Below, piece after piece: positions 3,687 to 54,839 of a stretch of DNA of 64,000 nt. The notes under the pieces were generated by a model, which was not told where the DNA came from, did no database searches, and saw nothing but the letters and a program-made list of their open reading frames with translations. A program made the position numbers and the translations under genes. How positions within the stretch are numbered: the first letter of the stretch is position 1; each line of letters begins with the position of its first letter. The stretch is from Acinetobacter defluvii. GTDB taxonomy: Bacteria > Pseudomonadota > Gammaproteobacteria > Pseudomonadales > Moraxellaceae. The stretch covers positions 186,001 to 250,000 of the forward strand of contig NZ_CP029396.2 in the NCBI RefSeq assembly GCF_001704615.3. The letters run 5' to 3'.

Positions 3687-3689
3687 GAT

Positions 3690-4118: not shown

Positions 4119-4186
4119 GTTTAACTCCATTAAAGGGTATTTAGATTCTATCTTAAAACACCCTAAATGTTTTTATTTAAAATTAA

Positions 4187-5080: not shown

Positions 5081-5082
5081 GA

Positions 5083-9489: not shown

Positions 9490-9522
9490 ATTTGATCCTT
9501 ATGACAGGTGGCCTTTCTGATT

Positions 9523-9672: not shown

Positions 9673-9729
9673 AAAATACCTGTATTTGTTTTTTAAAACG
9701 TCAATGTGATCGTCACAGATATGATACAT

Positions 9730-9786
9730 GGTATATACGAACTAGACCACACGTAATTGTTATTCACGTATGGTCTGGTATATACC
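9730..9786. promoter_or_regulatory. 57-bp imperfect palindrome, putative operator
   Basis: Outer arms are GGTATATAC and GTATATACC. Inner arms are TAGACCACACGT and ACGTATGGTCT, around an AT-rich centre near 9758; the left arm has three extra bases between outer and inner parts. It lies between the stop of the DarB-like gene and the small acidic gene, both on the minus strand. No T-tract follows on that strand, so a regulator-binding site fits better than a terminator. Confidence 0.45.
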
Positions 9787-9801
9787 TTTTAAGGGAGGGT
9801 T

Positions 9802-12800
9802 TTAGAAAGATAATTGCTGGATTTCTTGATCGTTATCTAGGGTTTTACCCTCATGTAACTCAGCCTTATAAGCTGGCTCTTCTGGAGGATTAAGCATACG
9901 GTTAATTTCATTTAAAAAGTAACCATTACCATCAGGAAGTTTAGATTTTAAATCCAAAAAGGCAGCTTCAATTTTGGTTGTACTGTCCAGCTCGTCAACA
10001 AAGCGTTCAACATCCTTGAGATCAAGCGCAAATCTAAACTCATTACGGCCTGGCTCAGTAAAGTGGATGTTCAACGATTCATCTGTTTTACCGCCTTTAG
10101 GATCATGGAATACGTTGGTATTCGACATAAAACGATTGAACTGTTTTGCAACAGATTTCACCGTCACATTAAAGCAGTCTGAACCGTTGTAGTAGAACTC
10201 AATACTTGCTTTCTTGTACGGGAAATTAACCTTAGTACCCACATAGTTATTGCGGTTGAAATCAATGTTTACAGGCAATTGATTAAAGAAGTTCGCAATC
10301 TCTTTAACTTGCTTAAACGTCACTTGGTTTTCAAGAGAGCTTTCAAACAAGTCAGTTGGTGTATTTGATGGCAATAATAACGCACGGTTACGCATACCAT
10401 CAGCATCGGTAAATATAACGGTTGAATGTCGTAGATCTAGTGAGCTGACAATCTTATGTGCCTTGAACATATTGCCCGTTAAGGTAATCGCTTGTCGTGT
10501 GACATCACCAGACGGCGCTTTCTCAAAATAGGTACGCGTATAACGGGAATAATTGTTTTGTTCAGTAAATAAGTTCACCAAGGGTTGACGATCCTCAACA
10601 TGACGTCTATTCACATCAGCATAAGAATAAAATTCAGGATTGAAGCGTTTTAGGATAATACGTCCTTTTTCACTCACTGGAGCTACCCAATCCAAGTCTT
10701 GCTTGGCATTTTGCATGGTGTAATTGATCAGTGGAACTTTAAACGACTTCTTATCACCAGGGTAAACCAAATCAAGCTTAACCGCATTCGGTGTGATTGC
10801 ACCTCCACGTAACGGCGGTAGGTCTAGACGTAGCAAAGCACCTGTTTTGTGATCTGGCGTCACTTCATCATCAAAAAGACTAGGTTTTGAGATAAGGAAC
10901 AATAACCCATGCGCTGAATGACCTTCTTTTTCGTTCCTTTCCATAGAACGAGCCAAGAATTTTAGATCCTGAACAATTCGATACATGCGATCAAAGTTAG
11001 AGGTCAAAATAGGATCATTGGCTAGATAAACCGCTTCAGCTACTTTCTCAAAGGCATCTGCAGAGTGATCATCAGGTTTACGAAATTGAATATCATCAAT
11101 GTGTTTTACATTGGCTTCAACAACACCGAAATGATCAAATACTTCGTGTCGATAATCACGAATTACTTCACCACGCATTTGCCCACTTTTGAAAAATAAC
11201 TTTTGCTTAGCAAAGCCTTCATATTTTTGGTACATCAATGCCTCAAAGTTATAGGCATAGTGTAGTAGTCCGTGTACCGTTTCATTGATGTTTTCATTGA
11301 TACGTTTAAATTGACGCACCAGATAATCATCACTTTCTTTGAACATGAGTTTTAGATTGTCAGCACGTAATGGCTCAACATGTTCAATGTATTGCAGACC
11401 TTCAAAACGCACAGGTAGATCAAAGGTATTGATCTTGGCTGCTTCTGTTTCTGAAGTCACGGTAAAGAAGTTGTCCTTCACTTCAAACTCACGGACTTTT
11501 TTAGCTTTCCAGTCTAAAAAGTTGGTCTTGAGTGGGTTACGACCCAACAAGTCTAATTCACGGATCTTATCGTTATAGTCAACAACCAAGTCTTGATAAA
11601 CCTGTTCTTGCTGACTAATCGGCATCAAAATCAGTTTAGATAGCAACTGGTTCACATGATAGTTTTGCGCCGTGCGATACGATGGTCCTTTTTCATCATC
11701 CGAAATATCAATATCAAGTGTGTTCGCCAAGTTCACGTTATTTTTCAAATAGTCCAACGATACCCGGTTGCCAATGTAGTTGAGCATGTCAGGATAATCG
11801 TTTTCGTTAAACTTGGTTTCTGAGTTGGCAGAGACGTTCGCTGATAGGGTAGACAGTTTACGCATCATCATTAAGTGCATACGTGTTTCTGCTGGAATAC
11901 CCGAATCTACTGTCGTCATAATCGGATGTGATTCTTCACCACGGCGACCCACACGACCGATCATCTGAATCGTATCGGTAGAGTTCTCAGGTTTTTGCAA
12001 GAAAAACAACTCACGTTGGCGCAAGTGATCCGATGGAATTGTAGGATCAGGGTTTTTGGCTGCATGTAGAGAAATACCCGTACAACCAGAGCGAGTCACA
12101 ATAACAACATCGATTTCACCAGATTGGAATTTTGATTGAACCAAAATCTTACCTTGTGTCGTATTGTTCTCTTGTTTATTAACCTTCCATTTGCCGTCTC
12201 TTGTTTCCGTTAAGTGGATCTGACGGCCAGAGATTTCATCAATCTTGAAGCCAGCTTTTGTCACCTTGTTACGTAGTACGTCCAAAGGCATCAAAGGTAG
12301 ATCAGGGAACTTTTGAATCTTTTCTTTGATACGATCCAAAATGATTTTATACGGACTTACCACTGGATCGCCGTTTTCATTAAATGTCACTTCCGTACTG
12401 AGCTTCTTAACGAACGAGTTACCGTAGTTATCTTCAGCTTTCACCACATCGATGCGATCTAACATCACTTCAAGCAAGTCACGGAATTGTGGGAGTTCAT
12501 CTAAAACAGAAATTTGACTTTGCAGATAGCTACCGCGCTTATCTTCAAGCTTAGTCAATTCCTTTTGAATATTTTTCGCTGCTTTTTCATCGCCAGCGTC
12601 ACGGTTTTCTTTGATCATGAGTTTTTGAAGCTCATTTTCAAGAAATTCAATTTCTGACGATACCGACTTGAAGTTATTAAACGCTTTTTCTTTTTCAGGC
12701 GAATCAGCGGTAACGTCTTGCGCCGTATCTGCTTTTAAAATCGCTTCCATGCGACTTTGCATCAAAATGTTGAATAGACTCTCACCCGTATTTTCCAAAC

Positions 12801-36890: not shown

Positions 36891-38531
36891 ATGACTGAAG
36901 AAATAAATAGTAATGAAAAAAAAGATGGTCCTATTACGGATGTAGGTAAAAAGTTTGCTGGTGCACGTAAAGACAACCCATCACCAGACTTTTCAGGCAA
37001 CATGAATGGAATTAAGTCTGACAGCCTAGTGACTAAAAAGGAATATTGGCAAAAGCCTGATTTTAGAGCTGATGCCCAATCTGGCCACAAACCTGTAAAA
37101 CATGCACTATTATTTTCTTTGGTCTATGCAAACTTAACCAACAAGCCTTTAGGGGGTGGTTGGTTTAGCATAGGTCAAAAGCAATGGGATGATGCCTACA
37201 TTGCTACACTACACTTCTTAAAAAACAAATATGAAAGCTCACACTACGAACTTTTAGAACAACTGACAGACGACTTTAATGCGTACATGACCGTTAAGTT
37301 TGGTGCTGGACGAAGTGAAAAAGATATTTTAGAACGCTACTCAGCTGGACGACATACCAATCGCAGAGTTAAACACCCACTATCATTTAGTTCAGACACA
37401 CAGTTACGCTTAAATAATCTAATCCCTTTAGGATGGCCAGACGATCGTGTACTTGATGCAGATAATTATGGTGCCAAAAAGTTATTAAACACTGAGACTG
37501 GTCAATATAAGTGGTATGCCGTTAAATCCATTTCAGCAAAGCGCTTTCAAACACTAGATAATTGGACAGAATACGACACATTCGATGCAGCACTAGAAAA
37601 AGTAAAAACATTTTTTCAGCCAATTTTAGATGAACGAGTCATAGAACCCAAAAAAGGACGCGCAAAACCCCCAAAAAGACCGCGCTACGACAGAGTTGAA
37701 GTACGCGAGGGTAAGGACCATCGAAAGGGTGAAAACATCGATAGCCAGTTGCTTATGGACTATTTCAAATTTTCTGGAGTCGAGTTCGGTAATTGGGTAA
37801 ATCAAAAGGAACGTGCATGGTTTCTGAATTGCACGTATGACTCACTAATGGATCTTGTCGAACTTCTAGGTCTACCCGTTACGTTCGCATCTTTAGGCGG
37901 TAAGCTAGGAATAGCATTCGGTTCGCGTGGCACAGGCGTTGATAGCGCAGCAGCTCACTTTGAACCAGGTAATATGCTTATTCATTTGACCAAGACGCAA
38001 GGTGTTGGAGCACTAGCCCATGAGTTCGCGCACGGATTTGATTGTGTTTTGGCAAAACGAAACGGACTCAATAATAACTTTTTTAGCGAATACTTTCTTT
38101 ACACCAGTAAAGGGCGTTACTCAGTACAGAATCATCAAGAGTCAGCATACAAACATCTTAAAGATGGCCAGACTGCAGATAAGTTTATCAAGCTGGTTAA
38201 TTATCTTACTTTTAAGTCAACCAAATACCTTGATTACGAAGAAAGACAAGGCGGTACGGGCTTTATGAATAACGCCATGCACCTAGATCAATCACGGTCA
38301 ATGTATTGGTCACAGCCAACAGAAATCTTTGCCAGACTGTTTGAATGTTGGGTGACGGATAAGCTGGCTGAAAATGATCAACAAAATGGGTTTTTGGTGC
38401 ACGGCACAGAAGAGTCGGCAAATAGTTGGAATATGAAGTTAAGCGCATATCCAACAGGCAGAGAACGGGCAATTTTAGTTGATTTGATGGATGATTGGCT
38501 AAAAGCATTAGTGAGGTCGTGGACGAAATGA
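36891..38531 (+). CDS. Polyvalent-type protein: LPD1 domain and zincin metallopeptidase
   Basis: 546 residues. The C-terminal half contains the LPD1 signature (GVEFGNWVNQKERAWFLN near residue 298, then AFGSRGTGVDSAAAHFEPG) running into a zinc-metallopeptidase motif ALAHEFAHGFD (near 375), with an acidic SQPTEIFARLFECW segment downstream that could supply the third ligand. The N-terminal part is basic and disordered. LPD1 and zincin domains occur in polyvalent proteins that enter recipient cells with conjugative or phage DNA, so a role during transfer, perhaps removing a host factor, is a reasonable inference. Its stop overlaps the start of the next gene (ATGA). Confidence 0.75.
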   Translation: MTEEINSNEKKDGPITDVGKKFAGARKDNPSPDFSGNMNGIKSDSLVTKKEYWQKPDFRADAQSGHKPVKHALLFSLVYANLTNKPLGGGWFSIGQKQWDDAYIATLHFLKNKYESSHYELLEQLTDDFNAYMTVKFGAGRSEKDILERYSAGRHTNRRVKHPLSFSSDTQLRLNNLIPLGWPDDRVLDADNYGAKKLLNTETGQYKWYAVKSISAKRFQTLDNWTEYDTFDAALEKVKTFFQPILDERVIEPKKGRAKPPKRPRYDRVEVREGKDHRKGENIDSQLLMDYFKFSGVEFGNWVNQKERAWFLNCTYDSLMDLVELLGLPVTFASLGGKLGIAFGSRGTGVDSAAAHFEPGNMLIHLTKTQGVGALAHEFAHGFDCVLAKRNGLNNNFFSEYFLYTSKGRYSVQNHQESAYKHLKDGQTADKFIKLVNYLTFKSTKYLDYEERQGGTGFMNNAMHLDQSRSMYWSQPTEIFARLFECWVTDKLAENDQQNGFLVHGTEESANSWNMKLSAYPTGRERAILVDLMDDWLKALVRSWTK

Positions 38532-40499: not shown

Positions 40500-43400
40500 A
40501 TGAAAGTTACATATCCAGAGACAGGTATATACGAGCACGAACTCAAAGCAATTGATAAGATTAAAAAGGTCTTTGATCGTGGCGAAAAAACTAAAAACTG
40601 GCGAGCATATGCTGGTTTTGAATTTATGCATAAAAATGGAAAAAAAGCAGTAGCGAAAGGTAGTTCTGAGAAATTTGAATATGATCTCCTAATTATTACT
40701 CATGCAAACATTTTGGTCATTGAATTCAAGGACTGGAACGGTAAGGAAATTACAAAAGTTGCAGGAAAATGGTACGTAGGTAATAAAGAGCAAGATTCAT
40801 GCCCTGTAGCTAAAAATGTAAAAAAAATGCAAATTATAGTTAATAAACTAAAGGATAAAGTTTCAGAAAAGAAAGCTAAGGGCATTACATTTCATTACCA
40901 AAGTGTTTCTCACTTTGTTGTCATGTGTGGTAAAGCAGATTATTCGCGCCTGCCTCCAGAAGATTTAGAGCACATTCTTTCGATAGATGAGTTTATACAA
41001 TTAGCTCAACAGAAGAATTTTAATAATATGTTCCGCAAGCATCTGGAACGTGATGGTCGCATATATGATATTAAAAAAGAATATCACGCCATTATTGATG
41101 AAATTTTTGCGCCTGACCAAATTCAACCACGCTCTTTGATTATTAATAATCATGAACGAGGTGACTTGATCTTACCGCATCCTAAAAAGATTTATAGCGA
41201 GTATAAAGCGCATTCATTGACCATCGTTGGTGAAAAATCTTTAATGCGTTGTTGGGATTTTAATGAATTCAAGTTGAGTAACTCAAGAATGAGTCAGCCT
41301 CAACATCGATTCAACTTGATCTGCAATGAGCGCCGGGTTTTCCAAAAAATTAAAACAGAAAAGCCTGATCTTTATCAAAGTTGTTTGCACCCGATTACAA
41401 ACCCAAGTCTTGATGACATGACATCAAAATATAATGAGTTGTATGAGTTGCCTGAGAACAGCTATCGAGTCAACGAATTCATCGGCGCTTATGCTGAGAA
41501 AATGTCTGAATCTGAGAAATTGGATTTATTCCAGATTTTGCTTGGTAAATTTAATCACCTACATCAAATGGGAATTACTCATGGTGATGTGGGTGATCAT
41601 AGTGTGTGGATCTCTTATAAAAAGGAGATATTGCTATCCAATTTTTCGGCAGCAAATGATCAAACACAGCCCTCGAAAATTGACCCTGAACTGGCTAACG
41701 AACTCCCATTTTTGAATACAACAGCTCATCTTCCGAATCTTGCGCTGACAGCTGCACAAAAGGATGTGTATTGGTTAGGGCAGTTAATCCTTCATATTTG
41801 GAAGAATGCTCGACTGAGCCCACGTTCATTGAAAAAATTTAGTCTTGAGGAGCGAGATCAGAACCACTGGTTAGAGCGTATTTTAACACGAGCTTTGACA
41901 GGGAAATATGATAATGCATGTGCAGTATTCCAAGATTTCTTAGCTCAAAAACCTGCTGAACAAGTTAGTTATGAACTTGATGCAGATGTACTGAATCCAT
42001 ATTTAAATCAGACAAATACCTATATCAGTTACCCGATATTTGGCGCGCCTATTGATGCTAACCAAAATTTTACACTCTATGCATCAGGCAACATGTTAGT
42101 CAAAACATGGATGGGTAAAGTTGCATCTGCAATGACAACTTATCAAAAGAGTTGTTTTAAGCGATTCTTTGAAGAACTTAAAATGACGCAGGCTCTCAAT
42201 TTGCCATACCTTCCTAAGATTATTGATTTTGGTTTATCAACTAGCACAGCATGTGTGTATCTAGTAACTGAAATGGTAAAGGGTGAAGCTTGGTCAACGG
42301 TTATTGAGGGCTTAACTGAGGATGAAAAAAATGAACTTTCACTTCAGTTATTGCATTCTCTGAAAAAATTTCATGAGCATGGCTTTCAACATGGAAACTT
42401 GGATGATGAAAAGATTCTAGTAGATAAAACAAACTTGAAAGTTAGTTTTAATGATTGCTTCCATCCTGAAGTACCACAACCTGATTCTTCTAATGCTTAT
42501 TTCCCATCTGATATTGAAGATCCAACAGTCATTCAGTGTGACAACTTTACTGCATTGAAATTAATCGCAGATCTATACGATATAGACTTGGCTGTGGATG
42601 ATGTGGCTTCAATGGATCCTACTTTATCCTGGCTAAATACAGCCTTGAGCATAGAAGGAATGGAAGATCCAAGTGTACGCTATATTGATAATTCTCGCTT
42701 TATAGAGGCATTTGAATGTAAGGGTGCTATTGTAAAAGAAGCTCCTCAGATTAGTATTTATACAAGTAAGGTTGAGACGCCCTTTACGATTTATCCCGAA
42801 AACGGCAAAGTTTATATCCAACTTGAGGCAGCAAGTGAGGGGGATTTTCGATTTACACTTAGCGGAATCAATGGCATGTTAAAAGGGTTTTATAAGCCCC
42901 ATGAAAATCAATTAAGTTTCCTTGATTTTGTCAAAAAACAAGACCTGTGGTGGAAGGCTAGTAGGGATGCAGATCTGACTATTGATGTTAGCATTGAAGT
43001 CCACCCGATATCTGGGATGAGTAAGCGTGACAACATTGTAGAGTTAAATGACTTCTTAGCAAAAGATCAAAACTTTAAGGATGCTATTGAACAGTTTAAG
43101 CAAGCACAGCTCAAAAGGACTCAAGAGAAAGAGGAAACATTACGGGCTCTGCGTGAACAAAAAGCATTACAAGAAGAGATAGGCGATGTTATAGCTACTG
43201 ATGAGCTTATGGCACAGCCAATGAGTCATCTGCCTACACATAGCCACTTAATTGATATTGAAACGAAAGAGTTGTGGAAAAAAGTCATGGCGACTGAGCG
43301 TCATGCACATCCTACAATCACTCTGTCTGAGCCGTTAAAGATAGTTTCGAGCAAACATTTTAAAGATTCAAAGAGTGCTATTGCATACTATGACTCTGCA

Positions 43401-45686
43401 GAAGATGTTTCAGCTAAATTTTCAAAGACCGATAAAGTCGATGTAATGTGCACTAAAGAAACTGGGGCGGGAGGTGATTACACTTTCTGCATAGGTACGG
43501 TGAATATTGCGCAATCAAAAGTCGGAGAATTGTGGATCGATTTTTGTAAAAAAACAAATGAAGTTCCTGAAGAAGCAACACTGTTTCTACAAAGCAAGGC
43601 AGATAAGTCATCTAATCGGAAACGTGCAGATGCTCTGACAAATATTCTGAGTAATAAGGCTGTCATTGAAAATCTCGTAGATTACTTTGAACCATCATTA
43701 GTGATTGAAGCAAAAGATTATGAGATTGAAGTGCCTGATGAAGATCTAGATCACTATAACAAATACAAAAATGGGGAATTGGTTAAAGCCCTCAATCCAT
43801 TACAACGTAAAGCGTTCCGTAATGTGCTTAAGTATGGACCTGTATCACTATTAAAGGGACCACCAGGAACCGGCAAAACTGAATTTATCTCTATACTGGC
43901 TCACTATCTCTATGATAAACAAAATGTATCTAACATCTTAATTGTTAGTCAGTCGCACGAAGCTGTAAATACAAGTGTTGAGCGTATACGTCAGCTATGC
44001 ACAGAGTATGACACACCATTAAGTATTGCTCGAATAAGCAATAAAGAGAGTGCTGTGTCTCCTGAATTAAAAGATGTCTATACAGGCTCAATTATTACGA
44101 GCCAGATAGAGCTGTTTAAGTCTAATATTAAAGAAAGAGTGCTTGAGCTTGCAAAAGATTTATCACTTGAAGCTGAATACTTGAGCGATCTTTATGAAAT
44201 CAGAGTCACTATTTTAAATAGTCTTAAATCTGCGTATCAGTCAATCGACCAAGATGATCTTGATCAAAAGTTTAGTTTCTCATTAGAAGAGTATACCCAG
44301 GCTTTCAAATCAGCAATGCATAAGCTGAAGAGCATGTTTGACGGAAATCAAGACTTTTGGGATCAACTGGAAGACTGTATCAATGATAAAGAGATAACAG
44401 TATTAAACCAGTTAAATAAGATCGACATGATTACGTTCGCAGCACTTAATCAATACTACGGGGTATCTAATGAGGAAGGACTTAAAGCGAAAGCCTTGAT
44501 CAATATTGCCCTAGATTATGAACCATTAATTGAAAGCCAAAATGCTAATTATGAAAGTTTTCTGGTCAAAACAAGGCAATTAGTCTGTGGCACATGCGTT
44601 GGTGTTGGCCAACAAAGTATTGGAATCGCCAATCACGTATTTGATTGGGTGATTATTGATGAAGCAGCACGTTCAATCGCTTCAGAATTGGCAATTGCAA
44701 TGCAGTCAGGTGCACGTATTTTATTAGTTGGGGATCAAGACCAACTTCCTCCACTATATTCGAGCGATCATATAAAGGCTTTAGCTAAGCAACTTAAGAT
44801 ATCAGATGATGATTTGGAAGATAAATTACAAAGCGACTTTGGCCGTATCTTTAATTCACATTATGGACTAAAGGCTAGTTCAGAACTCTTGTCACAGTAC
44901 CGAATGAGTCCGAGCATCGGCGAATTAGTTTCAGACTGTTTTTATGAAGGAAAACTTGAAACTGAAGTTGTCGATTCTCGTGGTTTAAGTGATGAAGAGC
45001 TGAAAGAAATTAAGTTAAAGCGGATTGTGCCTGATAACTATGCATCCGACATCGTAATAGAATTGAATTCAACAGTTACTTGGGTGGATACTGGGAATGC
45101 TGAGCATTTCAAAATGGAGAAAGGTAGTAGTATTTATAACCCACATGAAATTAATGAAATTATCGATTTTCTTCAGCGGATTGACCAAGACAAACTCTTG
45201 TTAAATAAATTAGTGCCAGAGCCTGATTCCCTTAAAGAGCCTGCTATTGGTGTAATTTGTACCTATGCTGAGCAAAAAAACCGGTTAAGAAAAGCCTTCT
45301 CTTTGTGTGAAGTGTCAGATGCATTGAGATCAATTGTGCGTATTGATACGGTGGATAGTTATCAAGGTAAACAGAATAAGATCATCATTCTCTCAGTTAC
45401 GCGAAATGATCCAACTAAGTTTCCTGCATTTTTGAAGTCACCAAATCGTGTGAACGTGGCTTTATCTCGCGCAATGGATCGTCTTGTAATCTTTGGTGCG
45501 TCAGAAATGTGGCAAGGAGTCAACAGTAACTTACCTTTAGGACGCGTATTAAATTACATCAAGTGCCGTGAAAATCAGACTTTAGAATATCGATATATTT
45601 CAAAACGCGCCATTGTCAAAATAGTACAAAACAATCCGCACATTAATAAAAATAGATCAAAAAAATATAGAAAGGCAGGGGTATAA
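40500..45686 (+). CDS. NERD nuclease - double pseudokinase - SF1 helicase giant, putative defence protein
   Basis: 1728 residues from the ATG at 40500; a TTG at 40452 would add 16. Residues 1-190 match a NERD nuclease (EYDLLIITHANILVIEFKDW gives the D...ExK core). Two kinase-like domains follow. One has HGDVGDHSVW near 360 but SNF in place of DFG. The other has HGNLDDEKIL near 630, with the catalytic Asp replaced by Asn. A coiled coil spans about 860-895. The C-terminus is an SF1/Upf1-like (COG1112-type) helicase: GPPGTGKTE near 1120, IIDEAARS near 1383, GDQDQLPP, and DSYQGKQNKIIILS...VALSRAMDRL. NERD-kinase fusions occur in BREX PglW and kinase-helicase fusions in Mokosh; this combination matches neither fully. 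It sits in an operon with 45690-47066 beside CBASS. Confidence 0.75.
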   Translation: MKVTYPETGIYEHELKAIDKIKKVFDRGEKTKNWRAYAGFEFMHKNGKKAVAKGSSEKFEYDLLIITHANILVIEFKDWNGKEITKVAGKWYVGNKEQDSCPVAKNVKKMQIIVNKLKDKVSEKKAKGITFHYQSVSHFVVMCGKADYSRLPPEDLEHILSIDEFIQLAQQKNFNNMFRKHLERDGRIYDIKKEYHAIIDEIFAPDQIQPRSLIINNHERGDLILPHPKKIYSEYKAHSLTIVGEKSLMRCWDFNEFKLSNSRMSQPQHRFNLICNERRVFQKIKTEKPDLYQSCLHPITNPSLDDMTSKYNELYELPENSYRVNEFIGAYAEKMSESEKLDLFQILLGKFNHLHQMGITHGDVGDHSVWISYKKEILLSNFSAANDQTQPSKIDPELANELPFLNTTAHLPNLALTAAQKDVYWLGQLILHIWKNARLSPRSLKKFSLEERDQNHWLERILTRALTGKYDNACAVFQDFLAQKPAEQVSYELDADVLNPYLNQTNTYISYPIFGAPIDANQNFTLYASGNMLVKTWMGKVASAMTTYQKSCFKRFFEELKMTQALNLPYLPKIIDFGLSTSTACVYLVTEMVKGEAWSTVIEGLTEDEKNELSLQLLHSLKKFHEHGFQHGNLDDEKILVDKTNLKVSFNDCFHPEVPQPDSSNAYFPSDIEDPTVIQCDNFTALKLIADLYDIDLAVDDVASMDPTLSWLNTALSIEGMEDPSVRYIDNSRFIEAFECKGAIVKEAPQISIYTSKVETPFTIYPENGKVYIQLEAASEGDFRFTLSGINGMLKGFYKPHENQLSFLDFVKKQDLWWKASRDADLTIDVSIEVHPISGMSKRDNIVELNDFLAKDQNFKDAIEQFKQAQLKRTQEKEETLRALREQKALQEEIGDVIATDELMAQPMSHLPTHSHLIDIETKELWKKVMATERHAHPTITLSEPLKIVSSKHFKDSKSAIAYYDSAEDVSAKFSKTDKVDVMCTKETGAGGDYTFCIGTVNIAQSKVGELWIDFCKKTNEVPEEATLFLQSKADKSSNRKRADALTNILSNKAVIENLVDYFEPSLVIEAKDYEIEVPDEDLDHYNKYKNGELVKALNPLQRKAFRNVLKYGPVSLLKGPPGTGKTEFISILAHYLYDKQNVSNILIVSQSHEAVNTSVERIRQLCTEYDTPLSIARISNKESAVSPELKDVYTGSIITSQIELFKSNIKERVLELAKDLSLEAEYLSDLYEIRVTILNSLKSAYQSIDQDDLDQKFSFSLEEYTQAFKSAMHKLKSMFDGNQDFWDQLEDCINDKEITVLNQLNKIDMITFAALNQYYGVSNEEGLKAKALINIALDYEPLIESQNANYESFLVKTRQLVCGTCVGVGQQSIGIANHVFDWVIIDEAARSIASELAIAMQSGARILLVGDQDQLPPLYSSDHIKALAKQLKISDDDLEDKLQSDFGRIFNSHYGLKASSELLSQYRMSPSIGELVSDCFYEGKLETEVVDSRGLSDEELKEIKLKRIVPDNYASDIVIELNSTVTWVDTGNAEHFKMEKGSSIYNPHEINEIIDFLQRIDQDKLLLNKLVPEPDSLKEPAIGVICTYAEQKNRLRKAFSLCEVSDALRSIVRIDTVDSYQGKQNKIIILSVTRNDPTKFPAFLKSPNRVNVALSRAMDRLVIFGASEMWQGVNSNLPLGRVLNYIKCRENQTLEYRYISKRAIVKIVQNNPHINKNRSKKYRKAGV

Positions 45687-45689
45687 CTC

Positions 45690-47066
45690 ATGGAAAATTC
45701 ACTAAGAAGCTATCATGACGTAGATGTTACATTGCCATCACAACTATTCAATGTGGCATTTAGCTATACCACAACAGATACCTTAGATTTTATTGATTCT
45801 ATGGTATTGCGCCTATTGGTAATTGCACCACTTTCTGCTGAAAAAATAGCGCGGTTCTTAGGGTTATCTAATCATGAAACAGATGTGCTATTAACTAAAT
45901 TATTAAAACAAATGCAGATAAAACATCTTGAAGATGATCGATTTGCTCTGACTCAGCGACTTGAGAAAGCATTCTCGGATGTTTGTGCAATTCCTTATGT
46001 AAATAAGATTGAGGACAATATTCAAAAGATGAGTTTTGAGATGATTGGCTTGAATCCTGAGCCAGTTAATCCCAACGCATCTGACAATGGGGCAAATTCA
46101 ATTAAATTAGATGCTTCTAACCAATACCTTTCAAATGGTGAGTCTTTGGTTAGTAAGGAGTTTCAGAAAAATTTTCGATTTTATTTCAGCCAAGGATTAG
46201 TTAAGTTGAATCCATCAGTGGATGAAAAGAAGCTGCAACTGTATAAAATGAGCCAAGTGGAAAAATTGCGAGACCATTCTCGTCGTTTTACATTACCATT
46301 GACGCTTGATGAGAATTATACACCTACAGAGATTAGTGATTTTAATCACATGGAAAATCTTAACAAAATCGAAGATTCTCTTTACGCTGCTCTTAGATCA
46401 GCTAAGAAGCCACAAAATATTGAGGATATTCTAAAGGTACTCCATGAATTAGATATGGAGGATACTTTTTCAGTTGAATCTATTTTTAGCGAGAATAAGC
46501 TTAATTTAGATCGCTTATTTAAGCTAGAACACAAATCCAATGAATACTTTATCGGGCCAATATATTCTAAGGAAAATTCAGACCTGTTTTTCAAAACAAT
46601 CAAACAATATCAAGACCAGAATAATGATGATAAACAGCTGTATTGGTTAGCTCCATCAGATGAATTTTGGGGTAAGTCAGATAGATTTAGTGATTTTATT
46701 GATCGTTTATCGACAACCACAATTACCAAAAACTTTAAATGCTTCTTACCAGTGGCATACAGAAATGATAAACAATCAATCGCAAGTTATAAAAAACTAA
46801 TCACAGCTGAGGCAGGAGCCAAGCACTTTCTAACGTTTAAGGAAAGTAGTGTAGTTTTTGACGGTAATTTTGAGCTTTTGGTTATGAAAGACTCTTTTTG
46901 TGTTTTGATTATTCACGTTAGTGATTCATCCACAAATATTTTAACAACAGTGCCTGTGGGTATTATTGTCAAAAATAAGGCTATTGCCCAATCGTTTTAT
47001 AAGTTTTTTGAAGACTTAGAGAACGATGGAGAGAACTTCTTTGGTTTATTAAATTCTAAAAAATAG
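45690..47066 (+). CDS. Winged-helix partner of the NERD-helicase protein
   Basis: 458 residues, starting three bases after the helicase gene's stop with GGCAGGGG upstream, so it is co-translated. Residues 38-98 form a winged-helix-like domain (IAPLSAEKIARFLGLSNHETDVLLTKLLKQMQI). The middle is helical. Residues 310-430 are alternating alpha/beta (YWLAPSDEFWG...CFLPVAYRN...VVFDGNFELLVMKD). That C-terminal pattern recalls a phospholipase D fold, but the HxK motif is missing, so nuclease activity is unlikely. It may be the sensor or DNA-binding subunit of the system. A strong terminator follows. Confidence 0.6.
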   Translation: MENSLRSYHDVDVTLPSQLFNVAFSYTTTDTLDFIDSMVLRLLVIAPLSAEKIARFLGLSNHETDVLLTKLLKQMQIKHLEDDRFALTQRLEKAFSDVCAIPYVNKIEDNIQKMSFEMIGLNPEPVNPNASDNGANSIKLDASNQYLSNGESLVSKEFQKNFRFYFSQGLVKLNPSVDEKKLQLYKMSQVEKLRDHSRRFTLPLTLDENYTPTEISDFNHMENLNKIEDSLYAALRSAKKPQNIEDILKVLHELDMEDTFSVESIFSENKLNLDRLFKLEHKSNEYFIGPIYSKENSDLFFKTIKQYQDQNNDDKQLYWLAPSDEFWGKSDRFSDFIDRLSTTTITKNFKCFLPVAYRNDKQSIASYKKLITAEAGAKHFLTFKESSVVFDGNFELLVMKDSFCVLIIHVSDSSTNILTTVPVGIIVKNKAIAQSFYKFFEDLENDGENFFGLLNSKK

Positions 47067-47078
47067 AATAATCATCTT

Positions 47079-47107
47079 AAAAAGCTAGCAGATTTGCTAG
47101 CTTTTTT
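47079..47107 (+). terminator. Rho-independent terminator
   Basis: AAAAAGCTAGCA and TGCTAGCTTTTT form a 12-bp perfect stem with a 4-base loop ending in Ts, 12 bases after the winged-helix gene. Confidence 0.9.
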
Positions 47108-48279: not shown

Positions 48280-48606
48280 ATGTCTGCACTACAAAAAATT
48301 AATGAAGATATGATAGTGAATCTTCCTAAGGGTGATTTACACGTTCATTTAAATGGAGCTATTCCAACAAATTTAGTTAAGGAATTATTAGCAAAAAATA
48401 CAAATGGAATTCCCTCAAATTTTGATATTAATAAAGATTTAAATATTCTCGAACCACAAAAAAATCTGCAAGATTATTTAAAACCATGGAAAGTCTTAAA
48501 TTTAATACCTAGATCGCAGAGTGATTTAAATAAAATAGTATTACAAACATTTTTTAGTTTAAAACGGCTTTGTTGTATAAACATTCTTCAAGATACTGAT
48601 TTTTAA
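48280..48606 (+). pseudogene. Adenosine deaminase-like N-terminal fragment
   Basis: About 95 genuine residues begin with MSALQKINEDMIVNLPKGDLHVHLNGAIP. The HVH pair is the zinc-binding HxH of the adenosine deaminase family. From 48566 the frame runs into a mini-element and stops at 48606, so about 70% of the enzyme (the remaining zinc ligands and catalytic Glu) is missing. No matching downstream part is visible after 48678. It is a remnant of a gene that probably belonged to the island; the family acts on purine nucleosides or nucleotides. Confidence 0.75.
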
Positions 48607-48752: not shown

Positions 48753-50378
48753 TTAAATTACAGCGATTTCATTCTTGCTTCCATTATTTCGAATTTGAAG
48801 TCTTGGAACCATTGAATTATTTAAGTAATCATAAATAACCATTTCAGGATGATGCAGATCAAATGCTTGTCCAAACCATATACAAGCAGCATTGGATGCA
48901 CATGGTAAGACATGAATTTTGGTAATTCCTTTATCTGTTAGACTATGAAATAACGCATGAATATCTTGCATGAAACTTAGTCCTCGTTCAGGATTTCTTA
49001 TTGCTCCATTCCCCATATATTCTGGTTTAGCAGTAATATTAATTACCGGATGTCCTAATTCAACAGCCTTATTTTTAGAGGTTTCTGGATCAGCAGTGAG
49101 ATTCAATCTAATAGTAATTTCAGTACAATCTTCTATTTCACTGAAATTATTAATTTCATACGCTTTGGTTGTACATATAAGATCAGGCCACATCCAACAA
49201 CTTCCATCCCTATACATAAGCATAGGTATAAATTTCCCTTTATTTCCTAATTTACTTCCTAATGCTATTAGGCATGGCATAGGGCCGAAGCCAAAAATAG
49301 CTACTCTCTTATCATCAAATTTAGTTTCCCTAAGTAATTGTTCTGTTTGAACTTCAAATTCTTCTAAAAAATACTTTTTATAGAACTCATCAGCTGAAGC
49401 TCTTAAATGAGCTGGTAATGGTTCATGAATTAGTGTCTTATCTTTATGCAAAATAGATTTTAATGGGAGAAGGCAGCTTGCAATATCACGTCGTGAAGGA
49501 GACTGAGGAATATTGCGATTCACGGGCCAGAAAAATAAATACACTGGCATAGGAGTAAAGCTTAAAGAATCTAATAAATCTTCGCATTGTGCTGTGAAAT
49601 TACTTCTCATTTGCGAGAGTCTTGAAGCTGTATATTCTGCGCCAGCAACTTTATCAATTAACCTATGATGTTTTTCACATAATAATAAAATATTCGTTGG
49701 ATCATCTGATAGTTGATATGAGAAGAAGGGGATACCGCGAGTAGAATTTTCTGATGCTGCAACATTATGAGCTAAAACGCCATATGTACCTTCAAATCCA
49801 GTTATTTCATCTATGTTTAATTTTGCACCACATCCTTTAAACATACATCGGCCATGACTTGAGAGATAAATCTGGTTTTTATCTTTTTCAGATAAATCGT
49901 TACCCCTACCTGTAAGATGCTCAAAATCAAAAATTCTTTTTATGAAATATTCTAATTGGTTTACAGGGTTTGGTTTTTGTTTAGGAATCTTTCTAGGAAC
50001 AAAATCTACATCTTTAACTTCGCTCTCTTGAGAGGAGGTTAAATTCCATGTTTCTTTTAACTTTTCAAAATCATGTAGAGTGTGGGCATCAATTATGTGA
50101 CCTTGAAGAAAGCGTGCATAAATGGAAATTTTTTTGGCAAGCAATCTTCGGACAAAAGTTAAAGTATCATCATAATTGAGAATTATACGGAAAAAACTTT
50201 CAGGGCTTTTATTTTTCAATAAGACAAAAATTATATTTTTACGTTCTTCATCAACTAATACACCTAATGAATCTATACAAATATGCTTTAAAATTTCTTC
50301 TATATATTTATTTGCATTTGATAAATCATCTATTGCTGATAAAGAAGTCTGTAAACTTAGGGATGGGTCTAGTTGCAT
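48753..50378 (-). CDS. cap5: CBASS effector Cap5, HNH endonuclease-SAVED
   Basis: 541 residues from the ATG at 50378; the in-frame TTG two codons earlier is unlikely. An N-terminal helical part (1-140) precedes an HNH/McrA-like nuclease (about 175-240): HGRCMFKGCG with zinc-type Cys, LAHNVA, and NILLLCEKHHRLID. The C-terminal half (about 300-541) has the SAVED sensor pattern (GFGPMPCLIALGSKLG, PVINITAKP, IHVLPCASNAACIWFGQAF). Cap5 is a DNase that cuts cell DNA once SAVED binds the cyclic nucleotide made by the CD-NTase. It is the last gene of the operon and starts two bases after cap3. Because an IS3-family element splits cap3 upstream, its expression may be reduced. Confidence 0.85.
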   Translation of the reverse strand: MQLDPSLSLQTSLSAIDDLSNANKYIEEILKHICIDSLGVLVDEERKNIIFVLLKNKSPESFFRIILNYDDTLTFVRRLLAKKISIYARFLQGHIIDAHTLHDFEKLKETWNLTSSQESEVKDVDFVPRKIPKQKPNPVNQLEYFIKRIFDFEHLTGRGNDLSEKDKNQIYLSSHGRCMFKGCGAKLNIDEITGFEGTYGVLAHNVAASENSTRGIPFFSYQLSDDPTNILLLCEKHHRLIDKVAGAEYTASRLSQMRSNFTAQCEDLLDSLSFTPMPVYLFFWPVNRNIPQSPSRRDIASCLLPLKSILHKDKTLIHEPLPAHLRASADEFYKKYFLEEFEVQTEQLLRETKFDDKRVAIFGFGPMPCLIALGSKLGNKGKFIPMLMYRDGSCWMWPDLICTTKAYEINNFSEIEDCTEITIRLNLTADPETSKNKAVELGHPVINITAKPEYMGNGAIRNPERGLSFMQDIHALFHSLTDKGITKIHVLPCASNAACIWFGQAFDLHHPEMVIYDYLNNSMVPRLQIRNNGSKNEIAVI

Positions 50379-50821
50379 TTTCAATTTAACTCAATATAAC
50401 CTAACAGTTTGATTTTAAAATTTTTTCTACCAATCCAGATTCCAGTTTTTACTCTTCCGATTATTAAATATAAAACTGGGTCATTAAGATTGGTAATGCC
50501 ATTTAGAACAGTATCTATATCCCTTAAATCGGTTGGAGAGGGTGTTGGTACATCTTCAGGATGTGTATGCCATAGGCCTTGAAAATTATAGAATTTTTTA
50601 GATTCGTTCCAAGCTTGTATTAAAGCATATTGGTGGGACTTTGACCTAAAGAAAGACATACGTGTTTGACAGTCTCCTTCCATAGGAGAGGTAAAGCTTT
50701 CAATGATTTTAGCTTTAGTTTCTATGTCTGTTCTGATGTGGTTCTAGGATTTTAGACCACGCCTATAAGTGATAATCTACTCCCCAATAAGCATGGGAAA
50801 TGCTTGTTTTTGGAGTCAACC

Positions 50822-51127
50822 ATGACACGAAGAAAACGTCGTAATCATTCAGCAGAGTTTAAAGTTAAAGTTGCTCTCGCAGCAATTAAAGGCGACCACA
50901 CACTCGCTGAACTTTCTACTCAATTCGATTTACATCAAAACCAAATCATCGATTGGAAAAATCAACTGCTTGAGCAATCAATCAATATTTTTTCACGACC
51001 AACAGCACAACAAGAACCTGAGATTGACCTCAAAGCTCTACATGCCAAGATAGGACATCAGGCATTGCAAATTGATTTTTTAGAAGGTGCGCTCAGAAAA
51101 ATAGGGCAGCTGAGCGGCAAAAAATGA
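50822..51127 (+). CDS. IS3-family OrfA
   Basis: 101 residues from the ATG at 50822 with GGAG upstream; the ATG at 50804 has none. Helix-turn-helix LAELSTQFDLHQNQIIDWKNQ and a leucine-zipper helix. Its stop overlaps the OrfB start (ATGA). Confidence 0.85.
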   Translation: MTRRKRRNHSAEFKVKVALAAIKGDHTLAELSTQFDLHQNQIIDWKNQLLEQSINIFSRPTAQQEPEIDLKALHAKIGHQALQIDFLEGALRKIGQLSGKK

Positions 51128-51951
51128 TCGATAAGACCCATCAACTTTCGGTACGACAACAATCGCAATTGATTCAAATCAATCGCAGTACGTTGTATTA
51201 CAAGCCCAAAGAGATTTCATCAACTGATTTGAGTTTGATGCGTCTAATCGATGAAATTCATCTCGACTACCCATTTATGGGCAGTCGAATGATACGAGAT
51301 ATGCTACAGCGTCAAGGACATAAAATAGGTCGGCGTAAAGTCCGACGTTTAATGCGCTTGATGGGAATACATGCCTTGTATCCAAAACCCAATACCAGTA
51401 AGCCTAATCTTGCACACCGTATTTTCCCATATCTGTTGAAAAACATGGTCATCGATCACTCTAATCAAGTCTGGTGTACAGATATCACGTACATTCCTAT
51501 GGCTAAAGGCTTTGTCTATCTGTGTGCAATTATAGATTGGCATAGTCGTAAAGTACTGGCTCATCGTGTATCGATCAGTATGGAAACAGACTTTTGCATA
51601 GATGCGTTGCAAGAAGCAATTGTGAAATATGGTTGTCCAGAGGTGTTTAATACAGACCAAGGCAGTCAATTCACAAGCGAGGCATTTTTGAATGAGTTAA
51701 AATTGCGAAATATCCGTATCAGTATGGATGGGAAAGGACGATGGATGGATAATGTAATGATTGAGCGTTTATGGCGCAGTGTGAAGCATGAGGAAGTCTA
51801 TTTGAAGGCTTACGATACGGTTAAACAAGCAAAACAATCAATTGCTGAATATTTGGATTTTTATAACACGATACGTCCTCATTCAAGCTTGAATAAGGCA
51901 ACACCAAATGAATTTTATGATCGACATTTACCAAAAGTAATGGCAGCATAA
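51124..51951 (+). CDS. IS3-family OrfB (DDE transposase)
   Basis: 275 residues. The HTH_21 region (SRMIRDMLQRQGHKIGRRKVRRLM) precedes the rve core with Asp in WCTDITYIPM, Asp in NTDQGSQFTS and Glu after MIERLWRSVKHEEVY. It appears complete, so this copy may still move. Confidence 0.9.
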   Translation: MIDKTHQLSVRQQSQLIQINRSTLYYKPKEISSTDLSLMRLIDEIHLDYPFMGSRMIRDMLQRQGHKIGRRKVRRLMRLMGIHALYPKPNTSKPNLAHRIFPYLLKNMVIDHSNQVWCTDITYIPMAKGFVYLCAIIDWHSRKVLAHRVSISMETDFCIDALQEAIVKYGCPEVFNTDQGSQFTSEAFLNELKLRNIRISMDGKGRWMDNVMIERLWRSVKHEEVYLKAYDTVKQAKQSIAEYLDFYNTIRPHSSLNKATPNEFYDRHLPKVMAA

Positions 51952-52157
51952 TTTAAATATTTAGAGCGGATTTATCACTTATAAAACTAGATTGAGTGGT
52001 CTAATTAACGGAACCACATCAGTTCTTCCAATTAGAATGCCACCCGATTCTGGAGAATCTGATTCTAATTGTATAAATTGCTTTAAACTCTTTAAAACAT
52101 TTGCTTGAATAATAAAGACTTGGCCTGTAGGTGTGTCACATTTAATCCTCCCTTGAG

Positions 52158-53816
52158 TTATGTATTGCAACATGGGCATACTTCTTTATAAATTTCTTTT
52201 AAATTCAATATATTAATTCCATTTGAATTATTTACTGAATTATAAAAAGGGGTAGTAATTATTCCATTTTTATTTGCATTCTGATTGTCGCCAGAAATAG
52301 AAACAAATCCTAATTGTTGATTCAGGACATATTCAGAAATATAGCTTGCTAGCTTCATGCAATTTAAAGAAGAGAAGGGGGTAAATGCACCAGCACACCC
52401 TGTAATATTTTTAGCAATTAGCTGTCCAGATTGTACATATTTATACATAGGGGTAAGACTTTTATTTGATTTTTCATCAAAATATAAGCAGTTTAAACAT
52501 CCTACATGTTTATTATTGAAAGAAATAAAATGTCCACCTAAATCATAAGGTTCTAACCAGCCTATTATTACTTGAATGTTTGCACTTATTTCATAAATAG
52601 TTTTTACGAGAGAAATCTCAGTAGGAGTATGGCCAATTGCTATGATGATAGTATCAATATCTTCAGTAATTTTTGATTTTATCCAGCTTTCACCATGGCT
52701 TACGAATGGAAAAATAGTTAATCCGGGCCTTTCTATTAAAAACTTATTAGCTAAAGAAGTAGATTTATAGGTATTAACATACTGCAAACCTAAAGAATGA
52801 CGATAAATATTATCTGTTTTTAAAAGCTCTGGATCTATGAAAGAAAATTTATTTACGCCTGTTTGAGCTAATATCTCTGCAATCTTTGAGCCTAAAGCCC
52901 CACATCCGATAATCGCTATATGTCTTGTTTTTTTCTCTTGCCCCGTTCTATTTAATAAATAATCTATCCACGCTCTTTGTGTTAAAGAGACTTTAAAGCC
53001 TTTGAAGGATACTTTTTCTTTGAAAGAATACCAAATGGCATAATAAAAAATCACATAAGCAAATCCATGTTCATTTGGAATTCCCACTAGGGCATAATGA
53101 TTGCCTTGTTTTAACAAAGATCGTTTGTTCTCATTAGAGAGGGTATTAACAATTTTTAGAAAATAGTCCTCATTAAAATAATCTCCTATATCTGGTATGG
53201 GGAAAACAGAAGCATCTTCTAATAATATCTTATGAATTTTTACTTTTGTGAGCTGGTTGTGGTTTATGTAAGAACTATCGCCATCATCAATATGCTCTAA
53301 TATTTGATGATTCCCTTTTGATGATTTTCTTAACCAACCATATAAATTAAATGTAGAAGTAGGGTCGCAATGTAATATTACATCCTCATTTATATTTTGA
53401 GTGCTGCCTAAATATCCTTCTAGTTCGTTATACAAGCTTACTCGGTTGTTTAATTGAAAATTAATAAAAGATTGCTTGAGTATATCTATAGCCCTTTCAA
53501 AGAATTCAGTAATAAGTTCTTTATGTCTATAGCCTTCAAAGTTTTCACCTTGATGATCCGTAGTACAAATTTCCCCACTTTGACTCACATGATCTAAGGC
53601 AGACATTGGTCGTGTCAATATTCTAAAAATGGGAGGTATCGTCCAATTAGCTCTATTTTGAAAAATTAGACCAAGGCAAACCTGTTGTGTATTAATGAGA
53701 AAATCAAATTTTAGATTAACCCAATCCTTAGTAATAGAAGTGACATGGATATTTTGAGCTCCATGTTCACTTAATAGCTTTTCAATATTGTCTAACTTTG
53801 GGTTATCAAAAAACAT
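52158..53816 (-). CDS. cap2: CBASS Cap2, E2-E1 ubiquitin-transferase-like fusion
   Basis: 552 residues. The N-terminal E2-like domain has its candidate catalytic Cys at residue 84 (SGEICTTDHQG). A linker region follows. The E1/ThiF adenylation domain begins near 298 with HIAIIGCGALGSKIAEIL (nucleotide binding) and FIDPELLKTDNIYRH. The E1 Cys is probably in GCAGAFTPFSS near 470. Zinc-type pairs GCLNC and CPCCNT (C-terminus) are present. Cap2 joins the C-terminus of the CD-NTase to a target to prime it. The gene starts nine bases after the CD-NTase stop. Confidence 0.9.
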   Translation of the reverse strand: MFFDNPKLDNIEKLLSEHGAQNIHVTSITKDWVNLKFDFLINTQQVCLGLIFQNRANWTIPPIFRILTRPMSALDHVSQSGEICTTDHQGENFEGYRHKELITEFFERAIDILKQSFINFQLNNRVSLYNELEGYLGSTQNINEDVILHCDPTSTFNLYGWLRKSSKGNHQILEHIDDGDSSYINHNQLTKVKIHKILLEDASVFPIPDIGDYFNEDYFLKIVNTLSNENKRSLLKQGNHYALVGIPNEHGFAYVIFYYAIWYSFKEKVSFKGFKVSLTQRAWIDYLLNRTGQEKKTRHIAIIGCGALGSKIAEILAQTGVNKFSFIDPELLKTDNIYRHSLGLQYVNTYKSTSLANKFLIERPGLTIFPFVSHGESWIKSKITEDIDTIIIAIGHTPTEISLVKTIYEISANIQVIIGWLEPYDLGGHFISFNNKHVGCLNCLYFDEKSNKSLTPMYKYVQSGQLIAKNITGCAGAFTPFSSLNCMKLASYISEYVLNQQLGFVSISGDNQNANKNGIITTPFYNSVNNSNGINILNLKEIYKEVCPCCNT

Positions 53817-53825
53817 TGAGTTTTC

Positions 53826-54839
53826 CTAAGCAGATTTTCCTTCTTGAGTGTAATAAGTTTGTACTACTGGTTCGGACACTTCTTGTATTTCAGGGATAGG
53901 GAATTGTCTTCCAAAAGTTTTATTTAAAATTTTGCAAGCTTCTACTGTATCAGTTTCCTCATTTACAGCTTCTAAAGATGATTTTAAATCTTCAAGTTTT
54001 GATTTTAAGTGCTCCATTTGTTTTCGGGTCAATTTTTCGAGTAAGTCTACACCTTGATGTGCAGGTAAATTAATTACGAGTCTGAAGTAATACTCGTTAT
54101 TTTCTGGATCAATGCTAAAGGTAGTGAATTGATCTAATACATTATTTACTATAGAAAGTAATACCTTATTATCATTCTCATAATCTTCAGCTGTTATATG
54201 CTCATATACAGCTGTAGTGATAGCAATACTCTTAAAAAAATCTAGACCTTTCTCATTTCGCCATTGTTTCAAGTAGCGAGTACATCGTCTAAACTGATGA
54301 CGTAAATCTGAATCATCTTCAAATTTTCCCAAAATTGTATCGGTAAGTTCAGTAGGATTTGAAATATCCCAAGTCTTAAGGTCTTCAGAGGAGAATTCCT
54401 TACCTCGAGCTAGATACATATTGCCTTTGTCGTCTTCAGCGTAGATGGGCAGATCTACATGATAATCGGGACTACCATTTTTGAGATAAGTGACAGTTAC
54501 GCAAGGTCGTTTGATCGTTACAGTTCTATTTGAATGAGTTAAAGCATCTCTAACAATTTTTTTAATTTCTACTGAGCCATATTCCTCTTTGTCACAATCT
54601 AATAAAACTCCTACATCAATATCATAATCTCCATTCTTAGGCTTAATCCCTGTGCCCAAGGCATAACTACCTTGATTAAAGTATTCAACAAATTGAGGAC
54701 CATTTGGATCCTTTTTGAGTTCATCTTTTAAGGTGCTAATCAAAAGGTCACGTTTTTCACGTAATGTACTTTCTTCGTCATAACGACCTAATCGAATATT
54801 TGTGTGGAACTTAGCATAGTGTTTTTGTGGATTCGCCAT
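53826..54839 (-). CDS. CBASS CD-NTase (cGAS/DncV-like nucleotidyltransferase)
   Basis: 337 residues. The nucleotidyltransferase core shows GS at residues 57-58 (FNQGSYALGTGIKP) and the catalytic DID at 73-75 (GDYDIDVGV), with the third acid probably Asp129 (YHVDLPIYA). The enzyme makes cyclic di- or oligonucleotides on phage infection. The C-terminus (YYTQEGKSA) is flexible, as expected for the tail that Cap2 conjugates. It is the first gene of the operon cdn-cap2-cap3-cap5 (type II CBASS). Cap5 effectors are often paired with CdnG-type enzymes making 3',2'-cGAMP; I cannot fix the clade by eye. Only 176 bases separate the start from the IS6-family element upstream. Confidence 0.9.
   Translation of the reverse strand: MANPQKHYAKFHTNIRLGRYDEESTLREKRDLLISTLKDELKKDPNGPQFVEYFNQGSYALGTGIKPKNGDYDIDVGVLLDCDKEEYGSVEIKKIVRDALTHSNRTVTIKRPCVTVTYLKNGSPDYHVDLPIYAEDDKGNMYLARGKEFSSEDLKTWDISNPTELTDTILGKFEDDSDLRHQFRRCTRYLKQWRNEKGLDFFKSIAITTAVYEHITAEDYENDNKVLLSIVNNVLDQFTTFSIDPENNEYYFRLVINLPAHQGVDLLEKLTRKQMEHLKSKLEDLKSSLEAVNEETDTVEACKILNKTFGRQFPIPEIQEVSEPVVQTYYTQEGKSA

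Follow-up and report, generated by a model that had tools for sequence, protein, structure and literature searches.

Mokosh type I, a known anti-phage system, is described as combining a COG1112/Upf1-like helicase with intact motifs and a Ser/Thr kinase domain. A NERD domain (PF08378) is also given for it, and a PLD-like domain tabulated, in the available text of PMC10952713. Mokosh has an unknown mechanism and is largely uncharacterised according to the accessible part of a 2026 review (PMC12926258), and in an excerpt of another paper it is said to break down viral transcripts (PMC11291487). Among the titles and opening lines of abstracts covered, which exclude most subscription papers and so prove no absence, none concerned a kinase-dead Mokosh or a worked-out Mokosh mechanism. 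In Mokosh type II, as far as the available text of PMC10740426 goes, a single protein, MkoC, carries a helicase and a C-terminal nuclease. The order NERD, inactive kinase-like domain, second kinase-like domain is reported for PglW of BREX type 2 in the accessible parts of PMC12839542 and PMC4365076, and the second kinase of PglW is active and needed for phage resistance (K677A; PMC4365076, in part). Some DndF proteins follow the order NERD, inactive kinase, active kinase (excerpts of PMC10853773 and PMC12839542). The sensor helicase of Hachiman HamAB, which frees a nuclease (available text of PMC12278908), offers a comparison of working principle only, the proteins being different.

The window considered here is a 64,000-nt stretch of Acinetobacter defluvii DNA (NZ_CP029396.2, 186,001 to 250,000 of the forward strand), and all coordinates below are relative to it. 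Two adjacent genes lie on its plus strand. The first, mkoA (40500..45686, ATG start), encodes 1728 aa and matches the PADLOC model PDLC03921 with 1675.9 bits over residues 1-1705; the second, mkoB (45690..47066), follows after a gap of 3 nt by ORF coordinates, encodes 458 aa and matches PDLC03923 with 316.1 bits over residues 2-454. An alternative in-frame TTG start of mkoA at 40452 gives a protein of 1744 aa.

Both proteins are thus full-length matches to MkoA and MkoB, adjacent and in the gene order of Mokosh type I, and the MkoA family score of 1676 bits over the full length makes a chance match no concern. MkoB is the conserved next gene after mkoA in 42 of 43 loci. Pfam recognises NERD, Pkinase (in the second kinase-like domain; PF00069, 43.5 bits against a cut-off of 31.7) and AAA_11/AAA_12 helicase domains in MkoA, which supplies the Ser/Thr kinase domain of the system, and the PLD-like domain is represented by a fold in MkoB. 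Judged by its sequence, the pair on the Acinetobacter plasmid is a complete operon of Mokosh type I. The first-pass annotation had seen two adjacent genes for proteins of 1728 and 458 residues and had taken them for a defence module, which stands; it had also called the module undescribed and distinct from Mokosh, which does not, since the homologues are already assigned to a system that has a name and consists of these two genes, MkoA and MkoB. In favour of a separate system one may cite two pseudokinases in place of one pseudokinase and one kinase, and an identity of at most 41% to MkoA outside the protein's own close group. Full-length matches to both families, the same gene order, the conserved MkoB partner and a position nested within the MkoA tree led to the rejection of this candidate and leave it highly improbable.

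MkoA reads, from its N-terminus, NERD, pseudokinase K1, kinase-dead K2, a beta/coiled-coil region and an Upf1-like SF1 helicase. The NERD nuclease-like domain (40530..41099, plus strand; residues ~11-200) has the core residues E60, D62, E75 and K77, and this E60/D62...E75-x-K77 arrangement is unchanged in 120/120 homologues among the matches listed; the homologue searches covered the best 120 of 652 and the best 120 of 1607 hits. A long single helix of coiled-coil-like character appears in the structure model at residues 857-895 (43068..43184, plus strand). The Upf1/COG1112-like helicase core (43791..45503, plus strand; residues 1098-1668) retains intact motifs (GPPGTGKT, DEAA, GDxxQLPP, SYQGK and SRAMDR). 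Its nearest solved structures by sequence are Nam7, Sen1 and Upf1, and such matches of MkoA are confined to the helicase part. A structure search with residues 1-1090 aligned protein kinases mostly to K1 and covered little of NERD, K2 and the middle region. The nuclease core (as D...ExK), the coiled coil and the intact helicase had all been read correctly in the first-pass annotation, as had a winged helix in the smaller protein, whose PLD-like C-terminal fold it had missed.

K1 (41130..41963, plus strand; residues ~211-488) has, to judge from its aligned residues, the appearance of a pseudokinase in all of the family that was compared. In the window's protein the VAIK Lys is replaced by R250 and the catalytic Asn by S368, and SNF (380-382; 41637..41645, plus strand) stands at the DFG position. 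It retains the HxD Asp, D363, within an HGD (361-363; 41580..41588, plus strand) that is HRD, with Arg, in 219/219 relatives outside the window's clade. K2 (41997..42719, plus strand; residues ~500-740, with Pfam Pkinase at 549-648) has lost the catalytic Asp, reading HGN (631-633; 42390..42398, plus strand), and has Lys at residue 638, the position of the catalytic Asn; K535 (VAIK) and D652 (DFG position) are kept. SNF and HGN had been noted earlier as signs of degraded kinases, which is correct for these motifs and is to be qualified by the residues that K1 and K2 preserve.

The K2 catalytic Asp and Asn are present in 219/219 compared MkoA proteins outside the window's clade, although 'kinase-intact' is uncertain as a label for all 219, since three Asp-keeping proteins (L044, L108 and L112) lack the Lys in the VAIK column. 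Inside the clade, 27/27 proteins lack the Asp and carry R (16), N (6), H (4) or Q (1) in its place; 19 of them are without the Asn as well. Among the compared MkoA proteins, loss of this Asp is, on the alignments, confined to the window's clade. The earlier description of two pseudokinases therefore holds family-wide for K1 and within this clade alone for K2. For these residue comparisons, 15 copy or near-copy loci were omitted (nine of the window's pair, three of L009, and L004, L031 and L034), and the alignments do not include loci with an MkoA ORF below 1590 aa (L022, L025-L028, L036). The divergent loci L021, L024, L045 and L046 were excluded from invariant-column counts and restored in the comparison of 118 Asp-keeping with 27 dead-kinase proteins and in that of 246 proteins, the latter of which omits L111 (< 1500 aa) and L114.

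K1 has changed in the same clade. At the HRD Arg position (R362), Arg occurs in 118/118 Asp-keeping proteins and Gly in 27/27 of those with a dead K2. The single clade formed by the latter (27/246 compared proteins) has lost both the HRD Arg and the activation-segment motif of K1, with Ser still present at the T394 position in 2/27; counts for T394 do not draw on the 246-protein comparison, in which this column is out of register by one. The concerted K1/K2 loss is a single evolutionary event and hence a correlation without replication, in which a Fisher test counts columns, not events. It is by these changes that the pair differs from ordinary Mokosh type I, and the loss of the K2 Asp and Asn makes it, as far as sequence can tell, a kinase-dead variant of the system and not a non-member.

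On a tree built from the helicase alone, the dead-kinase proteins form one clade nested in the MkoA tree. The MkoA clade lost the K2 catalytic Asp once and kept its other domains. A second independent loss was not found elsewhere in the family when 92 more proteins and 9 more loci were examined. Columns in which a switch from S/T/Y to D/E might mimic phosphorylation in the dead clade amounted to two weak ones (520 and 921), nothing convincing.

Such a loss may be the first step of decay, with a Mokosh on its way to losing function while riding successful plasmids. Several observations fit this assumption: L023, a member of the dead-kinase clade, has lost both its NERD Lys (EFC) and its K2 Lys; mkoA is split into two ORFs in one genome (L025/L028); and at least two plasmids carry an IS inside the gene. 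Moreover, 5/6 dead-clade dN/dS values for K2 exceed both Asp-keeping pairs, so K2 may be under somewhat weaker constraint, although the distances differ and several dS values are near saturation. However, dN/dS is well below 1 in every domain and for every pair with finite dS, and the clade is deep, its members being 35-41% identical to the window's MkoA outside its own close group. The NERD and helicase motifs are kept across it, save in the one protein without the NERD Lys, MkoB is conserved, and the whole pair is present in 55/61 plasmid records. Decay is accordingly an unlikely account.

The purifying selection on K2, together with the retention of K535 in 26/27 and of D652 in 27/27 dead-clade proteins, would also suit a domain that has remained catalytic in some uncommon way, either through residual phosphotransfer that does not need the HRD Asp or through another nucleotidyl transfer, such as AMPylation by a pseudokinase fold. 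Precedents for active pseudokinases exist and count in its favour. This reading appears doubtful, as the varied residues at the Asp position include no single conserved replacement hinting at a new active site, and most members have lost the catalytic Asn too.

MkoA shares NERD followed by tandem kinase-like domains with PglW, which ends in a wHTH triad/iSTAND C-terminus where MkoA has its helicase. The PglW equivalog model scores 40.7 bits on MkoA, far under its cut-off of 990, and PglZ (PF08665) was not found in the window's own genome (0/1), so BREX type 2/Pgl was rejected. The MADS equivalog MAD6, which is named a protein kinase, reaches 92.7 bits over residues 52-439, a part without the helicase, and was rejected for falling below its cut-off of 460. 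Membership in either system, suggested by the tandem kinase-like domains and the MAD6 similarity, is exceedingly improbable. DndF has the same N-terminal order around a P-loop kinase core in place of an SF1 helicase core. The MkoC model gives only 87 bits on MkoA, best in the helicase; Mokosh type II, one gene as opposed to two here with a PLD-like fold in MkoB, was also rejected.

MkoB contains a winged helix (45753..45992, plus strand; residues 22-101) and a PLD-like C-terminal fold (46536..47039, plus strand; about residues 283-450), the latter matched by Foldseek, with its range read from the secondary structure of the model. Its structure matches have a TM-score of at most 0.24 against the whole model, and a sequence search of solved structures returned no relative of MkoB at a useful E-value. 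The HxKx4D motif is absent from the window's MkoB. It occurs in 2/33 MkoB proteins, at residue 110 near the N-terminus in L032 and at residue 368 in the C-terminal part in L037, and is not shared by the others. On this test of the PLD-like region, a catalytically active PLD nuclease is not supported for the window's MkoB. Since the region lacks HxKx4D, MkoB would more likely be a reader of nucleic acid than a cutter.

The explanation that we favour, and consider probable, is a kinase-dead Mokosh in which helicase and NERD are coupled by conformation only. The Upf1-like helicase and MkoB would engage phage nucleic acid, and ATP turnover by the helicase would shift the tandem kinase-like domains, which may serve as a non-catalytic, probably ATP-binding switch linking helicase and NERD. 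The NERD nuclease, once freed, would cut nucleic acid, either DNA or RNA. In ordinary Mokosh, this helicase-nuclease step may also be gated by phosphorylation through K2, plausibly on the K1 activation segment; in the dead clade, the gate would be gone. The losses in L023 argue against NERD as the sole effector in every member. By analogy with PglW, whose active kinase is needed (PMC4365076, in part), kinase loss could equally cost function. The transcript degradation mentioned in the available text of PMC11291487 would go unexplained by a NERD of the DNase type, a further point against this mechanism.

A more tentative proposal is a phospho-relay in ordinary Mokosh, whose writer (D633), mark (T394) and reader (R362) would have disappeared together in the Acinetobacter clade. 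K2 would phosphorylate K1 at the Thr of its T-V-G-x-x-R activation segment, and the HRD Arg of this pseudokinase would read the phospho-Thr, thereby freeing the NERD nuclease; the clade might then represent a kinase-independent Mokosh subtype. D633 in K2 and R362 and T394 in K1 (window numbering) are the candidate relay positions in ordinary Mokosh. For the Mokosh kinase, the dead clade may be regarded as a natural experiment that indicates which part of the machine is dispensable.

Downstream of mkoB, an intrinsic-terminator-like hairpin followed by a T run (47080..47107, plus strand; -21.3 kcal/mol, z -3.6 for a 101-base stretch) agrees with the strong terminator proposed in the first-pass annotation; a simple terminator scan did not list it. 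CBASS neighbours the pair in the window, again as noted earlier. A scan of genome contigs yielded at least 73 loci, among them at least 18 (L029-L046) with MkoA-like genes by length and match, and a pattern matched 430 stretches of viral contigs, none of which was confirmed as a relative. The Mokosh pair resides on large Acinetobacter plasmids, with CBASS present in 53/58 records, and a Mokosh-CBASS module is found on large plasmids of many species of this genus.

The gene pair on the plus strand consists of mkoA (ORF 1, 40500-45686), which reads as a protein of 1728 aa, and mkoB (ORF 2, 45690-47066), encoding 458 aa, with a gap of 3 nt between them. A hairpin followed by a T run lies 3' of the pair at about 47080-47107 (folding energy -21.3 kcal/mol, z -3.6). 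The first protein matches MkoA across its entire length (PADLOC PDLC03921, 1675.9 bits) and the second matches MkoB (PDLC03923, 316.1 bits); in NCBIfam, neither reaches the cut-off of any model. PMC10952713 assigns NERD to Mokosh type I, and a PLD-like domain to types I and II alike. The first-pass annotation had described the domains correctly from the raw sequence and proposed a possibly undescribed defence system, but the PADLOC matches and the NERD listing mean that this NERD-kinase-helicase two-gene system already has a name, Mokosh type I. Of the 43 fetched loci with a readable ORF after mkoA, a set that counts the window's locus twice and includes several near copies, 42 have an MkoB-family member there; in the exception, mkoA is split and the next ORF is its helicase half.

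MkoA carries two kinase-like domains. The first, K1 (about residues 211-488), looks like a pseudokinase across the compared family: the position of the VAIK Lys is occupied by Arg in 118/118 relatives that keep the catalytic Asp of the second domain and in 26/27 that do not, the catalytic Asn position is mostly Ser and the DFG Asp position is Ser, rarely Thr, while the HxD Asp is retained. In most members the second domain, K2 (about 500-740), has the look of a canonical kinase: the Lys of VKxW is present, the catalytic loop follows the pattern H-G-D-[LI]-[HK]-P-x-N, and the DFG position holds Asp. In the window, the K2 loop reads HGNLDDEK, without the Asp and Asn; Lys 535 and Asp 652 are retained. 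Placing NERD ahead of a pseudokinase and then a kinase is an order that MkoA shares with PglW and some DndF proteins, as described in PMC12839542 and PMC10853773. The second kinase of PglW is active and required, according to PMC4365076.

Among the closest homologues (best 120 of 652), the K2 Asp is absent in 20 and present in 100. The comparison was enlarged to 246 sequences by 92 proteins from a second search (best 120 of 1607) and by further loci. The K2 Asp and Asn and the K1 HRD Arg are all present in 219 of these, and 27 lack the K2 Asp, with Gly replacing the K1 HRD Arg in every one. An active kinase is not assured for all 219, since three of them lack the VAIK Lys (Cys in L044 and L112, Arg in L108) though the HGD...N loop of K2 is intact, through either misalignment or another route to kinase loss. 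In a helicase-only tree (63 representatives below 80% identity, quick search), the 11 kinase-dead representatives form one clade (SH-aLRT 100) requiring one change; long branches were flagged, one of them, L023, within this clade. The Mokosh system itself is known, and the kinase-dead clade is, as far as could be seen, a new variant: none of the titles and abstract openings listed in literature searches of limited coverage, the original Mokosh paper not among them, describes it.

Losses in this clade were counted over the columns whose invariance among 114 Asp-keeping relatives is 97% or more. They affect 10/41 columns in K1 and 7/28 in K2, against 1/29 in NERD, 0/17 in the middle region and 5/167 in the helicase (kinase domains versus the remainder, Fisher p 2e-7). 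Among the K1 columns lost are R362, the Arg of HRD, and those of the activation segment T-V-G-x-x-R (T394, G396, R399); the Thr or Ser of this segment occurs in 118/118 Asp-keeping proteins, and its Gly is absent in a few distant ones. This apparently concerted loss is a lead only, because the p-value assumes independent columns and the loss is a single event. The dead K2 is nevertheless retained under purifying selection, with dN/dS of 0.08-0.21 in six dead-clade pairs, while two Asp-keeping pairs give 0.084 and 0.089; for one further pair of each kind, dS was saturated and no ratio could be obtained. Constraint may be somewhat relaxed, since five of the six dead-clade values exceed both Asp-keeping values. 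Elsewhere in the dead clade, NERD keeps E75 in 27/27 and K77 in 26/27, and the checked helicase motif residues are kept in 27/27. The exception at K77 is the Acinetobacter MkoA at L023 (genome G509, 1477-6429), in which the NERD ExK reads EFC and K2 has lost both its Lys and its catalytic loop; with helicase and MkoB retained, it is a more reduced Mokosh.

The domains, operon, clade, residue losses and purifying selection are established here. In the proposed mechanism, phage nucleic acid would be recognised by the helicase and MkoB, with the kinase pair as the coupling element and NERD as the effector. This scheme as a whole is held to be somewhat probable. The dead clade suggests that coupling can be conformational. 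In ordinary Mokosh, K2 might mark the activation segment of K1, a specific relay suggested by the residues lost together and considered rather unlikely.

MkoA-type matches were found in 24/175 Acinetobacter genomes, 6/194 of an order sample and 1/369 of a class sample (all E <= 1e-150), and 7/398 of a phylum sample (E <= 1e-80), the window's own genome being counted in each. The 24 positive Acinetobacter genomes comprise 17 with full-length kinase-dead MkoA, five with full-length Asp-keeping MkoA and two with only split or partial mkoA. Dead-clade members of named or placed origin are Acinetobacter without exception. At L025 and L028 (G487), mkoA occupies two ORFs of 1002 and 726 aa that overlap by 4 nt and are followed by mkoB; a frameshift appears as likely as a natural split because the break falls within a part of the model that is folded.

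The contig that contains the window is 355 kb long, in a genome of 3.8 Mb. The pair occurs in 61 plasmid records, exclusively from Acinetobacter and at an identity of at least 99%; among the matches listed (best 60 of 61), it is complete in 55, 27 of which show the full bit score and 100.0% identity. The A. lwoffii plasmid NZ_CP082144.1, with Kolyma permafrost as its stated source, carries the pair at 5343-11909 (6567 bases, 100.0% identity) and is absent from the CBASS-holding plasmids among the matches listed. On pJ9-3 (NZ_CP041590.1, 63456-72570), whose replicon cluster differs from that of pXBB1-9, IS5-family transposases lie on either side of the pair, which is located near a type I restriction system.

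A CBASS operon lies beside the pair on the minus strand (48753-54839). More than half of its region is present in 53 of the 58 plasmid records holding at least one third of the Mokosh pair, as counted between the best 60 of 61 matches to the pair and the best 60 of 115 to the CBASS region. The operon is interrupted (50381-53816) by an IS3-type transposase pair (50804-51951) between the Cap3/JAB ORF and the E1-E2 gene. This Cap3/JAB ORF has just 100 aa, and its best model match begins at position 67 of 168. Some plasmids hold 79% of the region, the missing fifth being about the size of the IS3-type insertion; none holds 80% in one place among the matches listed (best 60 of 115). Between Mokosh and CBASS, a 108-aa ORF (48280-48606) resembles only the N-terminus of adenosine deaminase (25.6 bits, slightly below the Pfam cut-off of 27) and is perhaps a gene remnant. 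Upstream of Mokosh, a 546-aa protein (36891-38531) contains an LPD1 (large polyvalent protein) domain.

Across 11 loci from Acinetobacter and other genera, 8 of 16 large flanking proteins, picked by size, match defence families, in six of the loci: Avs1b, Dpd/Gabija-type helicases, Druantia, type IIG and type I restriction, Azaca ZacC and Zorya ZorD. Because there was no control set, these flanks are consistent with defence islands and are not a measured enrichment. In Pseudomonas guineae (L032, 4775-9910), a 1711-aa protein immediately upstream of Mokosh is apparently a fusion of two helicases, its first half matching DpdF/PsyrT helicases and its second half GajB-type UvrD helicases.
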